A stretch of DNA of 64,000 nucleotides from an uncultured Synergistales bacterium (GTDB lineage: Bacteria > Synergistota > Synergistia > Synergistales > Aminobacteriaceae): positions 1-64,000 of the forward strand of contig CAJOGI010000004.1 of the NCBI GenBank assembly GCA_905234075.1, given 5' to 3'. Made by a program: the position numbers and the translations under genes. The notes beneath the pieces are model-generated. The model was not told the DNA's origin. It searched no databases and was given only the letters and a program-made list of their open reading frames with translations. Shown here piece after piece: positions 2,511 to 31,324 of this stretch. Numbering within the stretch: position 1 is the first letter of the stretch; every line of letters starts with the position of its first letter.

Positions 2511-2849
2511 GTGAAGAAATTTTTTAGTTTTATTCTTGCCGTGTGTTTTATTCTTACAGCTGCATGTGCGTTTGCATTCACGCCCGGCACATATGAAGGC
2601 GAAGGCAAAGGCTATAGCGAGAACGAGCCGGTCAAAGTAAGAGTTACGGTTGATGCTGAAAAAATCACAGCCGTTGAGATTGACGTGTCCGAAGAGCAGC
2701 AGCCGTTCGCAGCATCGATTTTTCCCAAGTATATCGAGGCATTAATCGGACGCACTGACGGAAACATTGACGCTATAGCAGGCGCAACAGTATCAAGAAA
2801 CGGCATTGCCGAAGCTGTCAATAAGGCTTTAGAAAAAGCCTCAAAATAA
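2511..2849 (+). CDS. Exported small FMN-binding domain protein
   Basis: A 112-aa protein with a Sec signal peptide (about residues 1-22, cut after AFA) and one FMN_bind domain. The motif DAIAGATVS near residues 84-92 fits the ApbE flavinylation signal, in which FMN is attached covalently to the Thr. It should act outside the cytoplasmic membrane as a small flavin electron carrier. A GTG start at 2511 is chosen because AGGAGG lies at 2493-2498 upstream. The sequence is nearly the same as the modules in the next gene 24 bases downstream, so it looks like one unit of a tandem duplication. It probably passes electrons to or from the flavocytochrome c at 3389-5623; that link is an inference from position. 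Confidence 0.85.
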   Translation: MKKFFSFILAVCFILTAACAFAFTPGTYEGEGKGYSENEPVKVRVTVDAEKITAVEIDVSEEQQPFAASIFPKYIEALIGRTDGNIDAIAGATVSRNGIAEAVNKALEKASK

Positions 2850-2873
2850 TTTTTCACAGAAGGGAAGATTTTT

Positions 2874-3077
2874 ATGAAGAAATTTTTTAGTTTTGTTCTT
2901 GCCGTATGTTTTACTCTTACGGCTTCGTTTGCGTTTGCATTCACGCCCGGCACATACGAGGGCGAAGGCAAAGGCTACAGCGAGACCGCGCCGGTTAAAG
3001 TAAAAGTTACGGTTGACGCGGAAAAAATCACAGCCGTTGAAATTGACGCACCCGAAGAACAGCCGTTCGGAGACTGA
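2874..3077 (+). pseudogene. Signal peptide plus first half of FMN-binding module, cut by frameshift
   Basis: The first 67 codons of what should be one long flavocytochrome c gene. They encode a signal peptide almost identical to that of the gene before it, then the start of an FMN_bind domain. The frame ends at a TGA (3075-3077). Compared with the next repeat unit (3189 onward), 41 bases are missing just before that stop, and 41 is not a multiple of three. The coding sequence resumes in another frame at about 3072. This fragment supplies the only export signal for the FAD domain downstream. Either the gene is broken in this strain, or the tandem repeats were misassembled. Confidence 0.7.
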
Positions 3078-3423
3078 CGGCAACATTGACGCCATAAGCA
3101 CTGCAACAATGTCGCGCAACGGCATTCAGGAAGCTGTCAATAAAGCGTTAGAAAAAGCCAGCGGACCTAAAGAAGAATCTAAAAAGGGTTTCACGCCCGG
3201 CACATACGAAGGCGAAGGCAAAGGTTACAGCGAGACCGCGCCTGTTAAAGTAAAAGTTACGGTTGACGCGGAAAAAATCACAGCCGTTGAAATTGACGCA
3301 CCCGAAGAACAGCCGTTCGGAGTTCCGAATTTTCCGAAGTATATCGAGGCATTAATCGGACGCACTGACGGCTATAACAAGCGCAACAATGTCGCGCAAC
3401 GGCATTCAGGAAGCTGTCAATAA
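3013..3423 (+). pseudogene. FMN-binding module fragments between two frameshifts
   Basis: Homologous coding begins at about 3072, not at the nominal frame start. It contains the end of one FMN_bind module, with DAISTATMS in place of the flavinylation motif, so its Gly is lost. It then has a linker and most of a second module that repeats 2943-3067 with about three base changes. Just after ALIGRTDG the sequence lacks a net 11 bases, between two GACG microhomologies, that include the flavinylation motif. The frame then runs out at 3423. The correct frame continues as the ORF at 3389-5623. See the preceding fragment for interpretation. Confidence 0.65.
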
Positions 3424-5623
3424 AGCGTTAGAAAAAGCAAAAGGCGGAAAGGACGCAGGGACTTCAGCTCCGCTTTCATTCACTCCCGGCGAATACACTG
3501 CGACTGCTGACGGCTATAACGGCCCTGTAACTGTCAAAGTAACTTTTGAATCCGATAAAATCAAAGGAATCGCCGTTGAGAAACATTCTGAGACGGCTCA
3601 CGTCGGCGACATAGCTTTTGACATAATGATCCCCGAAATGATTCAGGCTAACGGCTCAGGAGTTGACGGCGTATCAGGCGCAACCTTCTCAACACGCGCC
3701 CTCCGTAATGCTGTGAACTCTGCTGCAGAGCAGGCCAAGTGCACAAATTTTGAAGCATTCAAAGCCGCTAAAGTTGAACACAAACCCGGCGAACCTATCA
3801 CTCTTCATTATGATGTCGTCATCGTTGGAGCAGGCGGAGCAGGAGTAGCAGCGGCGGCTCAAGCTGCTCAGGACGGCAACAAAGTCATAATCATTGAGAA
3901 AAATGCTGAAGTCGGCGGAAATACTCTCGTGTCGGGCGGACAATATCAAAGCGTCATGCCCTACCTTGTATGGGATCCGAAAAATCCTGACGCTGAGACG
4001 GGAATTTACGCTTTCACCGGCGCGGAATATCCGAAAGTTAAATCAGTGCAGGGCTGTATCAATGAGCTTAAAATGATTTTGAACTGGAGCGAGGCTCCGT
4101 TTGACGCTGACTATTATAAAACTCATGAATTTGTCGCCGGAGATGCCCTCGAACTTTCAAAGCACGGAGTACACGCGGAATACCTGCCCGTTTTGAAAGC
4201 ACTCAAGGCCGAAATTAAAGCCTATCTCGACTGGGCACAGCCGAAACTCGACGCAGGCACGCCCGAAAATCAATTAACTCTCTTCTCAACGCTTAACCTT
4301 CATATTTTCCAGACTTATTACGGCGGTTTGAGACAGAGCGCGGATAAATCACAATGGATTTACGGCGATGTCAATCTCGTTAAGCAGTTTATTGAGAAAG
4401 CGCAGGGCCTCAAAGAATGGCTCGAAGGCATGGGCTCAACTTTCAAAGAGGACGGCCAGCCTACTTTAATCGGCGCGTTGTGGTACCGCGAGAACGAATT
4501 TATCGGTGCTAACGTTGACACTGACGGAGACGGAACGCCCGAAAATTATCCGGGACGCTGGGGAACTTATTTTGTCGCTCCTATTAACGCTTTCTTAAAA
4601 GCTAATCAGGAAAACAGAATTATGCTCCGCACGACCGTTAAAGAGCTTATCAAAGAGAGCGGAAGGGTCTTTGGAGTTAAGGCACAGCGTTACGACGGCA
4701 CAGAAGTTACTGTTTACGCGGCGAAGGGCGTTATCCTTGCGACAGGCGGCTACGCAGCGAACATAAAGAAAGTTCTTGACGAAAACGTTTACTGGTCGCC
4801 GGAATATCTTTCACTCTCAACGAAAACTACAAACCGTTCATCGCTTCAGGGCGACGGCATAACAATGGCACAGGCAGCAGGAGCAAACGCTACGGGCTTG
4901 GGCTTCACACAGTTAATGCCGATTTCGTGGATTGACAACGGAAATTTAGCTTTTGGCGGCGGTAACTATGCCTGCTGGATCAATCCGAACACGGGCAAGA
5001 GATTTGTTGACGAAGGCTCGGAGCGCGACGTTCTTTCACTCGCTGAATTTAGAAACGGAATGGACTACAAAGGAAGCAAGGGAGTTTTCTTGGAATTTTA
5101 TAACGTTGAGCAGAAGATGCCCGCGCCTACACAGCTTCCTGAGACGGGAGACTTCGCAGGGCGTTACTACAGGCGCAAAATTTCAGAGCTTCCTGAACTT
5201 TTCAAAGAGCTTGGAGTCAAGGCTGACCCGAAAGTCGTTGAGGAGACGATCAGAAATTACGACAAGGCTGTAATGTCCGGCAAAGATTTTCCTGATGTCG
5301 GCAAGGCAATCGCTTCGAGGCCGGTCGGCAACGTTCAGAAAAATGCTGACGGAAGTTATAACCCGGATACTTACGATTTAGACAATACCGTAATGACGAT
5401 AAGATTAATGGCACCGAGTACGCACCACACGATGGGCGGACTTGTCGTTGATGAAGAGAGACACGTTTTAACGCCCGAAGGAAGAATTATTCCGGGACTT
5501 TACGCGGCCGGCGAAGTTACCGGCGGTATTCACGGAGGCAACAGGCTCGGCGGAAACGCGATCACCGAAATTTTTGTTTCAGGTCGTATCGCTGCGTCAT
5601 CTCTTAACGCGGACAATAAATAA
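3389..5623 (+). CDS. Flavocytochrome c family reductase: FMN-binding plus FAD-binding fumarate/urocanate reductase-like domain
   Basis: A 744-aa frame. Residues 1-20 are the tail of an upstream FMN module. Residues about 30-110 form an intact FMN_bind domain with the flavinylation motif DGVSGATFS. Residues about 140-740 form the FAD_binding_2 reductase domain: FAD motif VVIVGAGGAGVAAA, GGNTLVSGGQ, then HHTMGGLVVDEERHV and GNRLGGNAITEIFVSGR near the C-terminus. Such enzymes reduce fumarate, urocanate or other enoates as periplasmic terminal reductases. The substrate cannot be told from sequence alone. The ATG at 3389 has no ribosome binding site and no signal peptide, so the true gene almost certainly starts at 2874, with two frameshifts intervening. 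A heptad-repeat terminator follows. Confidence 0.85.
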   Translation: MSRNGIQEAVNKALEKAKGGKDAGTSAPLSFTPGEYTATADGYNGPVTVKVTFESDKIKGIAVEKHSETAHVGDIAFDIMIPEMIQANGSGVDGVSGATFSTRALRNAVNSAAEQAKCTNFEAFKAAKVEHKPGEPITLHYDVVIVGAGGAGVAAAAQAAQDGNKVIIIEKNAEVGGNTLVSGGQYQSVMPYLVWDPKNPDAETGIYAFTGAEYPKVKSVQGCINELKMILNWSEAPFDADYYKTHEFVAGDALELSKHGVHAEYLPVLKALKAEIKAYLDWAQPKLDAGTPENQLTLFSTLNLHIFQTYYGGLRQSADKSQWIYGDVNLVKQFIEKAQGLKEWLEGMGSTFKEDGQPTLIGALWYRENEFIGANVDTDGDGTPENYPGRWGTYFVAPINAFLKANQENRIMLRTTVKELIKESGRVFGVKAQRYDGTEVTVYAAKGVILATGGYAANIKKVLDENVYWSPEYLSLSTKTTNRSSLQGDGITMAQAAGANATGLGFTQLMPISWIDNGNLAFGGGNYACWINPNTGKRFVDEGSERDVLSLAEFRNGMDYKGSKGVFLEFYNVEQKMPAPTQLPETGDFAGRYYRRKISELPELFKELGVKADPKVVEETIRNYDKAVMSGKDFPDVGKAIASRPVGNVQKNADGSYNPDTYDLDNTVMTIRLMAPSTHHTMGGLVVDEERHVLTPEGRIIPGLYAAGEVTGGIHGGNRLGGNAITEIFVSGRIAASSLNADNK

Positions 5624-5627
5624 AAAA

Positions 5628-5658
5628 GTTAGGAGTTAGGAATTAGGAGTTAGGAGTT
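5628..5658. repeat. Heptad repeat TTAGGAG/TTAGGAA (site 1)
   Basis: Four tandem heptamers of the form TTAGGAR directly after the flavocytochrome stop. They form the left arm of the terminator below. The same unit recurs at about ten other gene junctions in the window. Confidence 0.75.
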
Positions 5659-5689
5659 AAAAAAAATTTCCTAATTCCTAATTTTTTTT
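5636..5689 (+). terminator. Terminator built from heptad repeats
   Basis: Perfect 13-bp stem TTAGGAATTAGGA (5636-5648) with TCCTAATTCCTAA (5669-5681), followed by eight T. It lies between the flavocytochrome gene and the convergent DUF457 gene. Confidence 0.8.
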
Positions 5690-5690
5690 G

Positions 5691-6230
5691 TTAAATATTT
5701 TTCCATAAGACCTTTAGAAAATTTATCGCGCTGTCTACTGTAAAAAATCTCACGGAAAACGCGAGCATAGAAAGTAATACGCAGCACAAAATAAAATTTC
5801 TTTCGCCCCTGCTCACTTCGCCGATCTTCTTCGACATGTGAAAGACATGAAGCCCGATACTTCTCTTCCATGGAAATAAAAACGGCACCGTTCCGCACCA
5901 TGCGTCTTCTAAAATATGAAGCAGGCAGCCCATCAGCCAAAAGCCGGCGCAGGCCCACACGTCATAGTGAGCGTTGCGGCCGTCAACTAAGGCTGACAGT
6001 CTCGGAACTATCCAGCCCGAACGTTTGAAGCATGCATACGCCATAACCGCCCAAGGGACAAACCAGTGTGTCCAGCGTCTGTGCCAACGGTTGCGCCTCT
6101 TGCCAAAAAATACGTATTCAGAAGAATCCGGAAAGGTACTGCCGAAAAAGCTAAATAACGCCGCAAGCGGCGAACCTGTCGCACCTAAAACTATTGCTGT
6201 CGTTGAAAGTCTGTGTCCTTTTCCTGTCAT
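5691..6230 (-). CDS. Membrane-bound metal-dependent hydrolase-like protein (DUF457/YdjM family)
   Basis: A 179-aa membrane protein. The N-terminus MTGKGHRLSTTAIVLGATG, the conserved DSSEYVFFG and the His/Arg-rich RRNRWHRRWTHW segment match the YdjM/DUF457 family of small inner-membrane proteins, described as metal-dependent hydrolases. About four membrane segments can be seen, with conserved His residues near the membrane faces. It is transcribed divergently from cobU, whose start lies about 75 bases away. The 3' end reaches the heptad terminator at 5636-5689. The biochemical role of the family is not established. Confidence 0.7.
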   Translation of the reverse strand: MTGKGHRLSTTAIVLGATGSPLAALFSFFGSTFPDSSEYVFFGKRRNRWHRRWTHWFVPWAVMAYACFKRSGWIVPRLSALVDGRNAHYDVWACAGFWLMGCLLHILEDAWCGTVPFLFPWKRSIGLHVFHMSKKIGEVSRGERNFILCCVLLSMLAFSVRFFTVDSAINFLKVLWKNI

Positions 6231-6305
6231 TTTTATTTTTTTTAAGAAAACCTTTGCTAGAATTAATGAAAGATAAAAATTTAAGTTATTATAGCAAAAA
6301 CAGAC

Positions 6306-10595: not shown

Positions 10596-11924
10596 CTACT
10601 TCACGCTCCCGTGAAGACACCACGCTTCAGCCGAAGTTATTTCCACGTTCACGAACTCTCCTAAAAGTTTTTTGCTGCCCTCAAAAATTACGACCTTGTC
10701 CGACGGCGTTCGCCCCTGTAATAAATTTTCTCCCTTAGGCGCAGAGCCATCGACAAGGACTTCAAAAATTTTTCCCGTCAATTCCTGATTGAGTTCAAGA
10801 GTTATTTTGTCCTGAAGTTCGTTCAGCGTCATTAAACGTTTTAATCTTAAATCAACGGGCAAGGCTCCTTCCATTGTTGCCGCAGGTGTCCCGTCGCGTT
10901 CGGAATATGCCGCGCTGTGAACTAAGTCGAATTTTATTTCGCGCAGGGCGTTCATTGAGGCGTTAAAGTCTTCGTCAGTCTCTCCGGGAAATCCTACAAT
11001 TAAATCAGTGGTAAGGCCGAGACCGGGAATTTTTGAGCGCGTTAAATTAATTTTTTCGAGATATTCTGAATAAGAATATTTCCTGTTCATTAATTTTAAT
11101 ATTCTGTCGCTTCCTGATTGAATGGGAAGATTTAACGACGGACAGACAGTTTCTTCATTAGCCATGACGTTAATAATATCTTCCGTGAAATCCTGCGGCA
11201 ATGACGTAACGAACCTGACGCGCTTTATTCCGTTGAGCCTTGCTATTTTTTCCAAGAGCCACGCGAAATTTAAGCCGATGTCTTTGCCGTAGCTGTTGAC
11301 GTTTTGGCCGAGCAAAGTAATTTCTTTCACGCCGTCATTGATTAACATTTCGGCTTCGGAAAAAATTTCTTCGGGACTTCGTGAGACAAAACGCCCCCGA
11401 ACATACGGAACTATGCAATAAGTGCAGAAGTTATCGCAGCCGTGAGCGATTGTGATATAGGCTTTATATTTATTCTCGCGCTTGATTGTGATGTTGTCCG
11501 AATCAAAATTCAAGCTGTGAAATTCTCGCGGGTCCGTGTCGAGCAAATTAATTCTTGACTTAGGGTGCGAATAAATCTGCTCGATAGCGTCAGGAAGCAA
11601 GCCTATATGTCTTGGCCCGGCAACAAGCCTGACATAAGGGAAGCGGTTTAATGCCTTCTCGCCTATTCGTTGAGCTATGCACCCCGTGAGCGCGACTAAG
11701 GGCCGCTGATTTTTTTGCCATGAAACGTCATAGAGGCCAAGCTCGCTCCAGACTTTTTGCTCGGCCTTTGCTCTGACGCTGCAGCCGGTTATCATTACTA
11801 TATCGGCTTCGTTCTCGCTGACTTCCTCCCAGCCGCGTGAGCTTAAAACAGTTCTGACTCTGTCAGCGTCGTAAACGTTCATTTGACAGCCGTAGACTTT
11901 TACGCAAAACTTTTTAGCCGTCAT
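10596..11924 (-). CDS. miaB: MiaB, tRNA-2-methylthio-N6-dimethylallyladenosine synthase
   Basis: A 442-aa radical-SAM methylthiotransferase that adds the methylthio group to i6A37 of tRNA. The N-terminus VYGCQMNVYDADR is the MiaB hallmark, with Cys13 as a cluster ligand. GCDNFCTYCIVPYVRGR is the radical-SAM motif, and a TRAM domain ends the protein. Its start overlaps the stop of the unknown gene upstream by 4 bases (ATGA), and that gene lies three bases after purB, so purB, the unknown gene and miaB are one transcript. The window thus holds both methylthiotransferases, miaB and rimO, each preceded by a 4-base-overlapping gene of unclear role. Confidence 0.95.
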   Translation of the reverse strand: MTAKKFCVKVYGCQMNVYDADRVRTVLSSRGWEEVSENEADIVMITGCSVRAKAEQKVWSELGLYDVSWQKNQRPLVALTGCIAQRIGEKALNRFPYVRLVAGPRHIGLLPDAIEQIYSHPKSRINLLDTDPREFHSLNFDSDNITIKRENKYKAYITIAHGCDNFCTYCIVPYVRGRFVSRSPEEIFSEAEMLINDGVKEITLLGQNVNSYGKDIGLNFAWLLEKIARLNGIKRVRFVTSLPQDFTEDIINVMANEETVCPSLNLPIQSGSDRILKLMNRKYSYSEYLEKINLTRSKIPGLGLTTDLIVGFPGETDEDFNASMNALREIKFDLVHSAAYSERDGTPAATMEGALPVDLRLKRLMTLNELQDKITLELNQELTGKIFEVLVDGSAPKGENLLQGRTPSDKVVIFEGSKKLLGEFVNVEITSAEAWCLHGSVK

Positions 11925-12670
11925 TTATGCTTCTTGTTCCATTCCTTAAATTTTTCCCAGCCAATGAGCCATAAGAAAGAATGAGCGTCAATCAAGCGAA
12001 CACTTTTAATAGTAACTAGCTCTGGTAGTTTCTCTTGCAGTATTTCTTGAACTTCTTTAACAATCTTAATGAAGCCCATGTAATTTTCCCAGCTGCATTT
12101 ACCGGAAAGTTTTTCATAATTAACCTCCAGCCCGTAAACAGTGCTAAGATACGGAAAGACATTTTCATCAAAGTGTTCAGGACTTACAGGAACAAAACGC
12201 GACGGGGCTTTAACGAAAAACAGGTAAGCAATCAAACGATAAGAGCCACCAAAAATTTTTTTTACATTTTCAAAAGCTGTCTTCTCTTCATCGCCGGGCC
12301 TGCTTTTGTAAATTTCATAGAGAGTGCGCTCTGCTTCAGGATTAAAATTTTCGTTTTGAGGGGAGAGCATATCGTCAAATTCTTTTTTATATGTCCAATA
12401 GATAAGATTTACATTAAGCCCCACAGCCCGTTTACAACGTTCCAAAATTTTCCCGCTGTTAATCCACGATTCGTCCCATTTTTCACATTGAAGTTCGTCT
12501 CGGGCACGTAAAGCAGCTTTCATTTTGTATCCCTCACCATCTTTGCTTCCCAGAAAGGAACTTTCATCAACGAAACTGAACTGCCGCCCATGATCTTTGA
12601 AATCTACGAAAGCAACGAAATCTTCAATCGCCATTTTTAGTTTTTCAGGATTTTTTATTGCGCTCTGCAT
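11921..12670 (-). CDS. Unknown 249-aa protein coupled to miaB
   Basis: Not recognised. The protein is soluble, with no signal peptide or membrane segment. It is rich in Lys, Glu and aromatic residues. Visible blocks are SFVDESSFLGSKDGEGYKMK near residue 35, a central LIAYLFFVKAPSRFVPVSP (about residue 145) and a C-terminal SVRLIDAHSFLWLIGW. The last block resembles short motifs I associate with uncharacterised proteins near restriction systems, but this is a weak impression. It sits three bases after purB and overlaps miaB by 4 bases. An antisense frame at 12035-12511 was judged a shadow because this gene fits the operon so tightly. Confidence 0.75.
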   Translation of the reverse strand: MQSAIKNPEKLKMAIEDFVAFVDFKDHGRQFSFVDESSFLGSKDGEGYKMKAALRARDELQCEKWDESWINSGKILERCKRAVGLNVNLIYWTYKKEFDDMLSPQNENFNPEAERTLYEIYKSRPGDEEKTAFENVKKIFGGSYRLIAYLFFVKAPSRFVPVSPEHFDENVFPYLSTVYGLEVNYEKLSGKCSWENYMGFIKIVKEVQEILQEKLPELVTIKSVRLIDAHSFLWLIGWEKFKEWNKKHK

Positions 12671-14608: not shown

Positions 14609-16747
14609 TTGCGTAGGTTCTTTATAAAATTTATTCTCTTATTTCTTTTTATTTTTATAATTTTTACGAATAATTCATACGCCATAACGGGAGGCAACAC
14701 AGGCTTTACGGGCTTGTGGGAATATCCGACTGCAGAAATGCCCCACGACGGAGGCGGTCGCTTCGGCTACACGAAAGCTACGCCGTATGGATATTATTTT
14801 TTAGATTTAGCTTGGCTGCCTTGGCTCGAAATTAATACGCGCCTCAGCACATTTAACAGCATTGATGCTAACGGCAGACGCTACATGGATAAAGCCATCG
14901 ACTTAAAATTTATGCTCTGGGACAGTAAAGACCCTGCAAAATGGTATATCCCTTCAATCTCTGCCGGAGTTGTTGACATGATGGGAACAGAGTTAATGAA
15001 AGCCTATTTCGGCGCGATGACGTGGCGTTATGGAAAATTTGCGGCGACGCTCGGCTACGGCTCAGACAGGTTAAACGGCTTCTATGGCGGTGTTGAATGG
15101 GACATTGACAGCTGGCTGACGCTCAAGGCTGAATATAGTCCGCTTGATTATGATCAGGACGTTGTAAGCGGCCAAAAAATTTTAAGAGGGGACAATGCCG
15201 CGAAGAAAAAATATAACGCCGGTGTTGTTATTCACGCTCCTTGGGGCATGGACGGCTCATTAAGCTATCAGCGCGGAAACGAATGGGTCGTAGGAATTTC
15301 GCAGACAATAAATCTTGCCGGCCCCTACATTGGAAATCATAGAAGAACTTACGGCACTCCCGGTGATGCACGCATACCTTGCTGGGATAAGCTTGACACA
15401 GATACTTTAATTTCAAAATTAAAATCAGGCATTGAAAGATACGTCAGAGTCCGCGATGTTGACGTTAAGGTTGAAGCAACAAAGAGAGAACACAAATTAT
15501 ATTTAGCCTACGAAAATTACGGCTATGCCTCGCACGCTGAGGCAATGGTGAGAATTTTAGTTTTATTGTCGGCGGTCATGCCGGACGTTGACGAGCTCAC
15601 TTTAATTCATAAAAACGCAGGAGTTCCTGTCGTTCAGGCAACTTTTCCCGGAACTTTATTATTTGACATAAGAGCTAAAGATTTACGAAGCAAAGAGCCC
15701 ATGAAAGAATCGATTTTTAACTGGGCGGATTCTGACAGCGAGATCCAAGACCCCGATGCCAAAGGGCTTCTGCACAACAAAGCAACTCATGAAGTAAAAG
15801 CTATGGTGGTGTTTGAGCCGCGAATTGACCAGACCTTACGCGAAGCCTATATGGACCGCTGGGACATAGATTTAGTTTACAACGGCCGTTACTATAATGG
15901 CTGGGGCAGTGTCTTTGATATAAGATTTCCTATTTATAATCACGTAGATACTTCAGATTATTTCGGCTTATGGTGGGAGAAAGATTTGAACAACACAATC
16001 AGGATTCAGAAGGCCGGACTAACTTACGCAAATAAATTTACTAAAAACGGCCGCGCTTGGTTTTTTGCTGATGCAGGTTATCTTGATGAAGCATGGTTTG
16101 GCGCAAACGCTTGGGCGAGATATTACAGCGAAAGCGGTAACTGGTGGATCGGCGCGAGGCTTGCTGCGTTCCATGACAGAGACCCTTACTCATTCGGCGG
16201 ACTTACCGAAGGCGTATATAGATACTATCGCGGAAGAACTTACGATGTCCCGACTAATAAAGAATGGTATCCGACCGGCTGGGTGCAGGCTAATTATCAT
16301 TTTACCGATGTTGATTTAGATGTCGGAATTTCTTACGGTAGATATGTTGACGGCGACAAGGGCATTAAATATGAAGTTACGCGCCACTGGGACGATACTG
16401 CTATTGGCTTCTGGGTTATTGACGCTGACAGACACGCGCCCGATAAAAATTTCTCGCTTGCAGGAGTTCATTTAGAGATACCGGCTGACAAATGGTTTGG
16501 CACCATGTTCGGCAATTCGAGTTCGCATGTATGGGAACAGAACACCATTTTTCTTTCAACGTATTATATGGAGTCGGCCCGCGAAGGAGCGACTATCAGA
16601 ACGCCGGAACGCTTAATGAATCAGTTAAGGCCCGTAGCAATGAAGCGAAACGTCGAGAAATTGCTTCAGGAATATTGTTCATACGAGGACGAGCAATATG
16701 AGGACGAGAAAACTGTAACGAGCCTTTTTGAATATATTTTTCACTAA
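14609..16747 (+). CDS. YjbH/GfcD-like outer-membrane exopolysaccharide protein
   Basis: A 712-aa protein with a signal peptide (about residues 1-26, cut after SYA). It is rich in aromatic residues and alternating strands, as in outer-membrane beta-barrels. The mature N-terminus GGNTGFTGLWEYPTAEM and LAWLPWLEINTRLSTFN match the YjbH (DUF940) family. YjbH/GfcD proteins pair with Wza/GfcE-type exporters in exopolysaccharide and group 4 capsule secretion, and a Wza-like gene follows 25 bases downstream. The TTG at 14609 is chosen because AGGAG lies ten bases upstream and the signal peptide begins there. Its position implies a diderm envelope. Confidence 0.8.
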   Translation: MRRFFIKFILLFLFIFIIFTNNSYAITGGNTGFTGLWEYPTAEMPHDGGGRFGYTKATPYGYYFLDLAWLPWLEINTRLSTFNSIDANGRRYMDKAIDLKFMLWDSKDPAKWYIPSISAGVVDMMGTELMKAYFGAMTWRYGKFAATLGYGSDRLNGFYGGVEWDIDSWLTLKAEYSPLDYDQDVVSGQKILRGDNAAKKKYNAGVVIHAPWGMDGSLSYQRGNEWVVGISQTINLAGPYIGNHRRTYGTPGDARIPCWDKLDTDTLISKLKSGIERYVRVRDVDVKVEATKREHKLYLAYENYGYASHAEAMVRILVLLSAVMPDVDELTLIHKNAGVPVVQATFPGTLLFDIRAKDLRSKEPMKESIFNWADSDSEIQDPDAKGLLHNKATHEVKAMVVFEPRIDQTLREAYMDRWDIDLVYNGRYYNGWGSVFDIRFPIYNHVDTSDYFGLWWEKDLNNTIRIQKAGLTYANKFTKNGRAWFFADAGYLDEAWFGANAWARYYSESGNWWIGARLAAFHDRDPYSFGGLTEGVYRYYRGRTYDVPTNKEWYPTGWVQANYHFTDVDLDVGISYGRYVDGDKGIKYEVTRHWDDTAIGFWVIDADRHAPDKNFSLAGVHLEIPADKWFGTMFGNSSSHVWEQNTIFLSTYYMESAREGATIRTPERLMNQLRPVAMKRNVEKLLQEYCSYEDEQYEDEKTVTSLFEYIFH

Positions 16748-16772
16748 ACTAAAAACGGAGTGATTTTATTTT

Positions 16773-19094
16773 ATGAAAATAACGTGTAAAAAATTTTTTA
16801 TAGCATTGCTAATGCCACTGGCTTTGTGTAGTGCCGGATACGCCGCCGTTATTAACGCTCAGACGGGACAGCAGCCTGCCGGCGTGAATACAAATAATAA
16901 TAATGTTCAAAGACAGCCGCAGAATTATTATCAGGGTAATATTAATCGGCCTTTAGTTGAAGATACGAGGCCGAACATGATGACTTATGATTATTATGAT
17001 TATTATGAGCCGTTTACTTCTGATGATATTCCCTTGACTGACGAGGAAATTAACGAATTATTTGATCAAATTCTGAACTCGCAGAACGATAATCCGCCGA
17101 AAGATCCGACTATAGCTAAAACGTGGACCAAGAACAAGAATAAAAAGAATAAAAAGGATGAAGATAAGGATGAAGATGAAGATAAAGAAGAGCCGTTTAA
17201 GAGCCCTATAAATCAATTATTTAAGCGTATTCCGCGCTACGGAATGTCATTCTTCAGACATTCTCCAGCGTCATTTGTTCCGTTGGACAGCGTGCCTGTA
17301 ACTCAGGACTACAGAATAGGCGTTGGCGATGAAATGACGCTCACTATATGGGGAATCCCCGAAGAGGGCTTTTATAATTTCATAATTAACCGCGACGGCA
17401 TGGCCTCTATTCCGCATATAGGAACGATTAGACTCGCCGGTTATACAATGCAGGAGGCCGAGAGAGTAATTCATATGCGGCTTAACCGCTACTACACGGG
17501 TTTCCAAATGAATTTGTCTATGGGCAAAGTCAGCTCGATAATGGTCTATGTAACCGGCAACGCCCGAAGGCCCGGAGCCTATACCGTCTCGTCGTTTTCA
17601 ACTTTAGTCAACGCCCTTTTAGCTTCAGGGGGCCCGGCATCTAACGGAAGTCTGCGGAAAATTGAATTAAAGCGCGGAGCGAAAACCGTAGCGGTTTTTG
17701 ATATGTATGCAATGTTGATGCGCGGAGATAAAACTCAGGACGCAAGACTTCAAGCAGGAGACGTTATATATATTCCGCCTGTGGGGCCGTTAGTCGGGGT
17801 TGCAGGAGAAGTCCAGAAGCCCGGAATTTATGAGATCAACGGCACAACCCGTATGGAGGATTTGCTTTACATAATCGGCGGAATGAGCGCGAGAACGTTC
17901 GCCGGAAGGATTCAATATTTCAGGATAATGAATAACTCTTATGTAAGTGCTTTTGAGGGTTCTCTGTCGGAACTTGAAAATTCAGAACTTCATGACGGCG
18001 ATATTATCCGATTGTTCCCGATTAGCAACTTGAGCGCAACCGCAAGAATTGAAGGCACGCTGTTGAAACCGGGCACGTATGCAATAACACCTGGACGTAC
18101 AACAATCGCCGACTTAATCAAACGCGCAGGAGGATTAAAGCCTACAGCTTCAGACACTGCTGAAATAACGAGGGTAACTCCTTCGCTTGAAGGCCCTGTG
18201 AACGAACGCTTTACGGTAAATATTGCTCAGGCATTGCAGGGCGACCCGATGAATAATTTGACGCTTGAGGACAACGATCAAATAACAGTGCTTGTAATTC
18301 CGGAATGGAAAAAACAAATCAGCGTCACAATCGCCGGAGAAGTTAAAAAGCCCGGAGTTTACGCAATGTTTCCGGGCGAGAGGCTTTCAGATCTGCTCAC
18401 ACGTGCCGGAGGTTTTACATCGAAGGCATTTTTGCGCGGAGCTATTTTTACCCGCCCTTCAGTTGCTGAAGAGCAGAAGCTCGCATTAAATCGAATGGCT
18501 GACCAGATGGAAAGAGATTTGCTCCAGTCTATGCAGAACACCACCCCTTCAACTTCCGGCTCGACGGCTCTTGATTCTGAGTATAAAAGAAGAGTTGATT
18601 TAATTGACTCTCTAAGAGAGCTTGACGTTATGGGAAGAATTATTACGAAAATAGATTCGCCTCAAAACATAATCGGAACGGCTTGGGATTATGAACTTCA
18701 GGACGGCGACGTTTTAAGGATACCCGACACGCCTTTAACCGTAAATATTATGGGAGCAGTTTACGCTTCAACGAGCTATATTTATCATCCTAAAATGGGA
18801 ATAAACGCTTACATCGCTGCTGCGGGCGGCGCATTAAAGAATGCCCATAAAAGGCTTGTCTATCTGCTCAAGAGCGATGGAACAACCATAAGGCTTACGC
18901 GCAGTACTTCCATGCTGTCGTCAAAAATGTGGAAAGCCCCTCGCGGTTATTCTGCAAAAATTGAACCCGGCGACACAATCGTAGTACCTGTAAAATATCT
19001 TGAACGTCAGAACATAGACAATCTTAAGGACACAATCGATGTTATTTATAAAGTTGCTGTCGCTGTCGGAGTAATCCTCAACAATAGTAAATAA
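16773..19094 (+). CDS. Wza/GfcE-like polysaccharide export protein with five SLBB domains
   Basis: A 773-aa exported protein. A signal peptide (cut near YAA, residue 25) is followed by an Asn/Gln-rich stretch, a DYYDYYEPF segment and a Lys/Asp/Glu low-complexity patch (about residues 115-145). A Poly_export domain begins near residue 175 (DYRIGVGDEMTLTIWG). Five SLBB units follow, each with a G-x-V-x-x-PG-Y core: VTGNARRPGAY, VAGEVQKPGIY, IEGTLLKPGTY, IAGEVKKPGVY, and a divergent last one. A short hydrophobic C-terminus (VIYKVAVAVGVIL) ends it. It probably forms the export channel partner of the YjbH protein. No Wzc kinase or glycosyltransferase is nearby. Confidence 0.85.
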   Translation: MKITCKKFFIALLMPLALCSAGYAAVINAQTGQQPAGVNTNNNNVQRQPQNYYQGNINRPLVEDTRPNMMTYDYYDYYEPFTSDDIPLTDEEINELFDQILNSQNDNPPKDPTIAKTWTKNKNKKNKKDEDKDEDEDKEEPFKSPINQLFKRIPRYGMSFFRHSPASFVPLDSVPVTQDYRIGVGDEMTLTIWGIPEEGFYNFIINRDGMASIPHIGTIRLAGYTMQEAERVIHMRLNRYYTGFQMNLSMGKVSSIMVYVTGNARRPGAYTVSSFSTLVNALLASGGPASNGSLRKIELKRGAKTVAVFDMYAMLMRGDKTQDARLQAGDVIYIPPVGPLVGVAGEVQKPGIYEINGTTRMEDLLYIIGGMSARTFAGRIQYFRIMNNSYVSAFEGSLSELENSELHDGDIIRLFPISNLSATARIEGTLLKPGTYAITPGRTTIADLIKRAGGLKPTASDTAEITRVTPSLEGPVNERFTVNIAQALQGDPMNNLTLEDNDQITVLVIPEWKKQISVTIAGEVKKPGVYAMFPGERLSDLLTRAGGFTSKAFLRGAIFTRPSVAEEQKLALNRMADQMERDLLQSMQNTTPSTSGSTALDSEYKRRVDLIDSLRELDVMGRIITKIDSPQNIIGTAWDYELQDGDVLRIPDTPLTVNIMGAVYASTSYIYHPKMGINAYIAAAGGALKNAHKRLVYLLKSDGTTIRLTRSTSMLSSKMWKAPRGYSAKIEPGDTIVVPVKYLERQNIDNLKDTIDVIYKVAVAVGVILNNSK

Positions 19095-19430: not shown

Positions 19431-19508
19431 CGGGACGTAGCGCAGTCTGGCTAGCGCATCTGCATGGGGTGCAGGGGGTCGGAGGTTCGAATCCTCTCGT
19501 CCCGACCA
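19431..19508 (+). tRNA. tRNA-Pro (anticodon GGG)
   Basis: A complete cloverleaf of 78 bases. The acceptor stem CGGGACG pairs with CGTCCCG, starting with the C1-G72 pair typical of bacterial tRNA-Pro. The D stem is GCGC/GCGC. The anticodon stem TCTGC/GCAGG encloses the loop ATGGGGT, with anticodon GGG at 19466-19468. The T stem is GGAGG/CCTCT with loop TTCGAAT. The CCA end is encoded (19506-19508). Confidence 0.97.
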
Positions 19509-31197: not shown

Positions 31198-31228
31198 ATA
31201 AATTAATTTAAGAAAAAATATTTTTTGC

Positions 31229-31324
31229 TCTTATCAAGAGAGGTGGAGGGACCGACCCTGTGAAGCCCGGCAACCCGCAAAGGCGGGTGCCAATATCGGC
31301 AGCATTAAGGCTGAATGATGAGAG
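31229..31324 (+). ncRNA. SAM-I riboswitch aptamer (S-box)
   Basis: Matches the S-box core: CTTATCAAGAGAGGTGGAGG, then GACC, GTGAAGCCCGGCAACC, GGTGCCAATATCGGCAGC, and a closing GATGAGAG. Helix P1 pairs CTCTTATC (31229-31236) with GATGAGAG (31317-31324). It lies directly before metK, so S-adenosylmethionine should repress its own synthase. Confidence 0.95.

Follow-up and report, generated by a model that had tools for sequence, protein, structure and literature searches.

The window analysed here is a stretch of 64,000 nt from the start of contig C4 in a genome (G000) of 18 contigs and 1.84 Mb. Near its start, two consecutive plus-strand genes carry four FMN_bind modules. The first gene (2511-2849, GTG start) is intact and encodes a standalone, presumably secreted single-domain protein of 112 aa (Pfam FMN_bind, E 8.7e-12), which begins, as judged by eye, with a signal-peptide-like segment and has the motif DAIAGAT; its module 1 occupies 2574-2828. 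The second and much bigger gene opens with a signal peptide and continues with modules 2 and 3; after these come module 4, which is diverged, and an FAD_binding_2 domain, which ends at 5623. Its start (2874-3077), very similar to that of the standalone gene, codes for the signal peptide (again by eye) and the first 45 residues of module 2, up to the stop at a frame break.

Modules 2 (2937-3147) and 3 (3190-3427) are near-identical and have exact matches of 79 and 56 nt in common, the repeat similarity (189 nt at 89% identity, plus the exact 79-mer) being far beyond chance; the frame of module 3 is broken near residue 62-64 of 84. Module 4 (3473-3754), recognised by Pfam, is diverged and intact, carries the motif DGVSGAT and is in frame with the fumarate-reductase-like FAD_binding_2 domain (3755-5623; Pfam PF00890, E 4e-54), also intact. 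Pfam assigned FMN_bind to the standalone gene and to the FAD ORF, and a search within the genome itself found FMN_bind pieces in all four modules. Directly after the FAD ORF lies a plus-strand terminator-like hairpin with a U run behind it (5624-5690; -23.5 kcal/mol, z -4.95), built partly from an AGTTAGG repeat. Beside the array, on the minus strand, there is a gene for an Mrr-type restriction endonuclease (1119-2171).

Two losses within the module array

The relatives are rumen and gut Synergistaceae or Fretibacterium-like MAGs, and megablast returned no plasmid relatives. The closest contig found, JAFSXR010000018.1 from goat rumen MAG RGIG3568, has the same architecture as contig C73 of G007, the nearest relative among the genomes compared and a member of the same genus as the window genome. 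A comparison with relatives had been proposed in the preliminary description, and in G007 the big gene stays open over 941 aa. Measured against it, module 2 of the window lacks 41 nt after 3072 and module 3 lacks 11 nt around 3371; the ORFs at 2874, 3013 and 3389 lie in three different frames, neighbouring frames overlapping at 3013-3077 and 3389-3423.

The junction of the 41-nt loss (3072/3073) immediately follows the exact 79-nt repeat common with module 3, and the word ACTGACGG (3073-3080) adjoins it on the right; the junction has no microhomology, and its 15-mer occurs a single time in the genome. The junction of the 11-nt loss (3371/3372), in module 3, is located directly right of ACTGACGG (3364-3371), with one nucleotide ambiguous by our reading of the alignment to G007. 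The two losses flank the same 8-nt word from opposite sides, to the left in module 2 and to the right in module 3, and the piece between the junctions (3073-3371) carries that word at both ends and is 299 nt long, or 298 nt under the alternative placement of the ambiguous base.

Most of the preliminary description is borne out by this comparison: near-identical modules are followed by a diverged fourth, both losses are seen against G007, and the signal-peptide ORF at 2874 is out of frame with the FAD ORF at 3389. Its view of the 11-nt loss as lying between GACG microhomologies had to be abandoned, since a clean GACG-GACG deletion would predict 12 nt and the ambiguity at the junction is only 1 nt. 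The statement that this loss removes a flavinylation motif is correct in part: the Asp is gone from module 3, while the T-S-A-T part is kept, in the FAD frame. We also rejected a chimeric join in which the junction word was copied from elsewhere in the genome, as no other occurrence was found, and repeat recombination as the origin of the losses, since an exchange between modules alters whole in-frame units and not 41 and 11 nt within one.

Over the 19,444 nt aligned to G007 there was no other clear uncompensated frame break outside the array, save for an 8-nt difference at a gene end and one divergent ORF; base-level errors throughout the assembly found no support as an explanation, the neighbouring genes being in frame with those of G007. 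The standalone gene, intact in the window, has a 7-nt frame-breaking loss in G007. Some other features of the aligned region and beyond may be recorded. A minus-strand ORF at 11924-12670, with no Pfam match, shows 23 indels relative to G007, whereas its neighbours show almost none; at 14609-19091 YjbH-like and Poly_export/SLBB genes are adjacent and probably serve exopolysaccharide export, and an indel-rich difference from G007 is found near 17120-17192. The match to the G007 contig ends at about 19.5 kb, beside a tRNA gene (19431-19505), and a SAM riboswitch is located at 31228-31324.

Frame breaks and contig ends in other arrays

Frame breaks were counted in a set of 93 sequences, of which 34 were pieces of the window genome or of genomes in its genus and 59 were additional loci left once duplicates had been removed; 43 of the 92 sequences other than the window's had no module copy at the 45% identity limit and contribute to the FAD count only. 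Loci with two or more modules had five breaks in 37 module copies (8,937 nt), single-module loci none in 33 copies (7,710 nt), and the FAD domain two in 158,028 nt. Multi-module loci differed from the FAD domain (Fisher, p 8e-6), the contrast with single-module loci being not significant (p 0.066). As the window genome had been chosen for its breaks, it was left out of a recount, which gave three breaks in 34 multi-module copies (8,226 nt), none in 33 single-module copies and two in 156,162 nt of FAD domain, with p values of 0.0012 and 0.25 for the same two comparisons, respectively. The 7-nt loss of G007 was excluded from the Fisher tests because the match simply ended early. Both breaks in the FAD domain (G012 and G016) fall in non-repetitive sequence.

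A comparison of all 36 contig ends of the window genome gave four pairs with an overlap of exactly 99 nt, one of them joining the start of the window's own contig C4 with the start of C3, and one further pair with an overlap of 25 nt. Constant exact overlaps between contig ends are a sign of de Bruijn assembly, here with words of about 99-100 nt, and we therefore regard the window genome as a short-read de Bruijn assembly. The available text of reports on rumen MAGs gives IDBA-UD for single-sample assemblies from 100- or 150-bp Illumina reads and MEGAHIT for co-assemblies of the red-deer MAGs (PMC7820578); 150-bp reads, with MEGAHIT for co-assemblies and MEGAHIT plus IDBA-UD for single samples, for the goat RGIG MAGs (PMC8199421); and Illumina assemblies, one of them by IDBA-UD, alongside a nanopore set for the RUG MAGs (PMC6785717).

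Damage to module arrays was also observed in other genomes. In L094 (CAJOGG010000034.1), an unrelated red-deer MAG, 23 nt are missing from copy a and 12 nt from copy b, the two losses sitting on opposite sides of one 20-nt word. The piece at 5869-6167 has 20-nt identical ends and the same topology as that of the window, with a different repeat period; its length of 299 nt matches the window's, a match noticed post hoc and subject to the window value being possibly 298. In G027, from red deer, a small gene on C81 has an 8-nt duplication at 6244, exactly at the end of a 99-nt exact repeat, and the contig with the other repeat copy stops at the corresponding base. In L125 (RUG14645) both copies, around 6126 and 6380, are cut at the same base, which is the start of an exact 99-nt repeat, and in G015 one copy has a 60-nt in-frame loss. 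Contigs end in or beside module arrays in G027, G009, G006, G022, G034 and G013, and within the FAD domain too in G020, G028, G012 and G018. The array is unbroken in G014, G004, G021, G028, G033, G035 and G001. With assembly-type damage in L125, L094 and G027, arrays in public rumen MAGs need checking before any count of their modules is relied on.

Origin of the losses

Between the window genome and G007, the 744-codon FAD ORF shows 95 synonymous changes against 11 non-synonymous ones (dN/dS 0.03). When changes in module 4 and the FAD domain were assigned to branches, that of the window genome received 14 synonymous and no non-synonymous changes with four outgroups (64 sites ambiguous), and six and none with 14 outgroups (87 ambiguous); the G007 branch received 17 synonymous and five non-synonymous changes, and four and three, respectively. 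The gene is one that has been under strong constraint until about now. The 14 synonymous to no non-synonymous changes are equally compatible with an artefact and with a real loss of very recent date, and speak against an old decay.

We consider that the two losses are most likely a misassembly. The true gene would then be one continuous frame for an exported multi-FMN_bind, fumarate-reductase-like enzyme. The stretch shared by modules 2 and 3, observed as 79 nt and thus below the 99 nt of the contig overlaps, may in reality be longer than the assembler's word; a loop-shaped assembly piece of 299 nt would run once round the repeat unit, and both its ends could have been joined to their neighbours with the overlaps left unmerged, so that 41 nt went missing at one join and 11 nt at the second. 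Such a joining of one loop piece at both ends would account in one step for both losses, for the same word abutting them and for the twin case in L094. In favour of a misassembly are the 99-nt overlaps between contig ends, the topology of L094, the breaks of G027 and L125 at the edges of 99-nt repeats, the intact big gene of G007, and frame breaks that are denser in multi-module arrays than in the FAD domain. Against it, a de Bruijn assembler normally makes no junction that is absent from the reads, so that the explanation depends on an assumed step of joining or local assembly; the repeat as observed falls short of 99 nt; module 1 of G007, a genome from another project, has a 7-nt loss that does not fit the loop topology; two breaks occur in the non-repetitive FAD domain; and the contrast between multi- and single-module loci is not significant.

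The main rival, which we hold to be unlikely, is a genuine and very recent pseudogenisation, in which a reductase gene that is otherwise conserved was inactivated in this strain by two real deletions in its modules; translation of the FAD ORF from 3389 would give a cytosolic protein with no signal peptide. It is what the sequence as given presents, the alignment to G007 is otherwise nearly free of uncompensated frame breaks, and two other intact genes combining FMN_bind with FAD, on contig C5, could substitute for the lost one. However, the absence of non-synonymous changes beside 14 synonymous ones on the branch leaves almost no time for decay, and real deletions must also contend with two losses that flank a single 8-nt word, one on each side, in the manner of L094, and with junctions that offer no microhomology (41 nt) or a single ambiguous base (11 nt).

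A phase switch, in which near-identical modules act as mutual repair templates and gene conversion toggles an extracytosolic reductase within rumen populations, appears very improbable. Every lost segment is intact in a sister module, modules within an array are 78-95% alike as compared with a between-genome mean of 72%, which fits homogenisation or recent duplication, and array damage is recurrent across several genomes; yet no alternative allele was seen among genomes sampled at one per species, no invertible element came to notice, the modules hold no simple-repeat or slippage tract (the only one is the AGTTAGG array, downstream of the gene), the breaks of G027 and L125 lie at the edges of assembly words, and the seven arrays named above are unbroken. 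Programmed frameshifting that fuses the three frames into one protein can be given hardly any weight: the frames do overlap, but two separate shifts would be required and we noticed no slippery site, two modules lack residues outright, and G007 requires no shift. From the three origins offered by the preliminary description, misassembly is thus the one favoured, decay through repeat recombination being unlikely and phase variation unsupported. Should the losses be artefacts, a tandem FMN_bind array in a short-read MAG can pass for a pseudogene or a split gene, and tallies of multi-flavinylated proteins or decayed reductases drawn from such genomes would be off.

Enzyme class and known systems

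Judged by its sequence, the product of the intact gene combines several FMN_bind modules with a fumarate-reductase-like domain and is an ordinary member of a known extracytosolic flavoenzyme class; it would probably pass electrons from the membrane via threonine-linked FMNs to a substrate at an extramembrane FAD site. More than one FMN_bind per protein is present in G007 (in its 941-aa frame) and in G014, and not in the broken frames of the window; the host clade consists of rumen synergistetes with arrays of differing module number. By sequence, the solved structure closest to the FAD domain is urocanate reductase 6t85 (E 1.1e-42, over residues 411-737 only), UrdA of Shewanella, with flavocytochrome c fumarate reductases likewise among the closest to the domain. 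Although UrdA is the best match of the FAD domain among solved structures, the big gene of the window differs in having three FMN_bind modules, with a standalone one beside it. The flavocytochrome c profile TIGR01813 scored 211.6 bits, under its curated cut-off of 285.45. The genome has one ApbE gene (C2:50320-51150, E 1.4e-81).

The flavinylation motif is given in the available text of a review as D-x-x-[S/T]-G-A-[S/T] (PMC12052999). Module 4 (DGVSGAT) fits it, module 1 (DAIAGAT) departs from it by an A in the S/T position, and modules 2 and 3 deviate; in G007 both of these read DAITSAT, and module 2 of the window has S-T-A-T where G007 has T-S-A-T. Repeated modules in the same genus often read D-A-[IV]-[ST]-[NS]-A-T. 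N or S stands at the expected G in many modules of this clade, so that possibly not every module carries FMN.

Proteins with several FMN_bind domains, some clustered with fumarate-reductase-like domains, are a class described by Meheust et al. 2021 (PMC8238504), the main text of which, as available, contains no word beginning with 'synergist'. As far as that text describes the class, the window gene in its probable intact form resembles it in having more than one FMN_bind, a fumarate-reductase-like FAD domain and probable export, with apbE elsewhere in the genome; it differs in that its frame is broken twice in this assembly and its repeated modules read TSAT or STAT where the motif has G. Tandem FMN_bind domains with covalent FMN are likewise found in SaFMN3 and CbFMN4, whose FMN domains number three and four according to the available part of PMC10339131; unlike these, the window gene runs on from its tandem domains into an FAD reductase.
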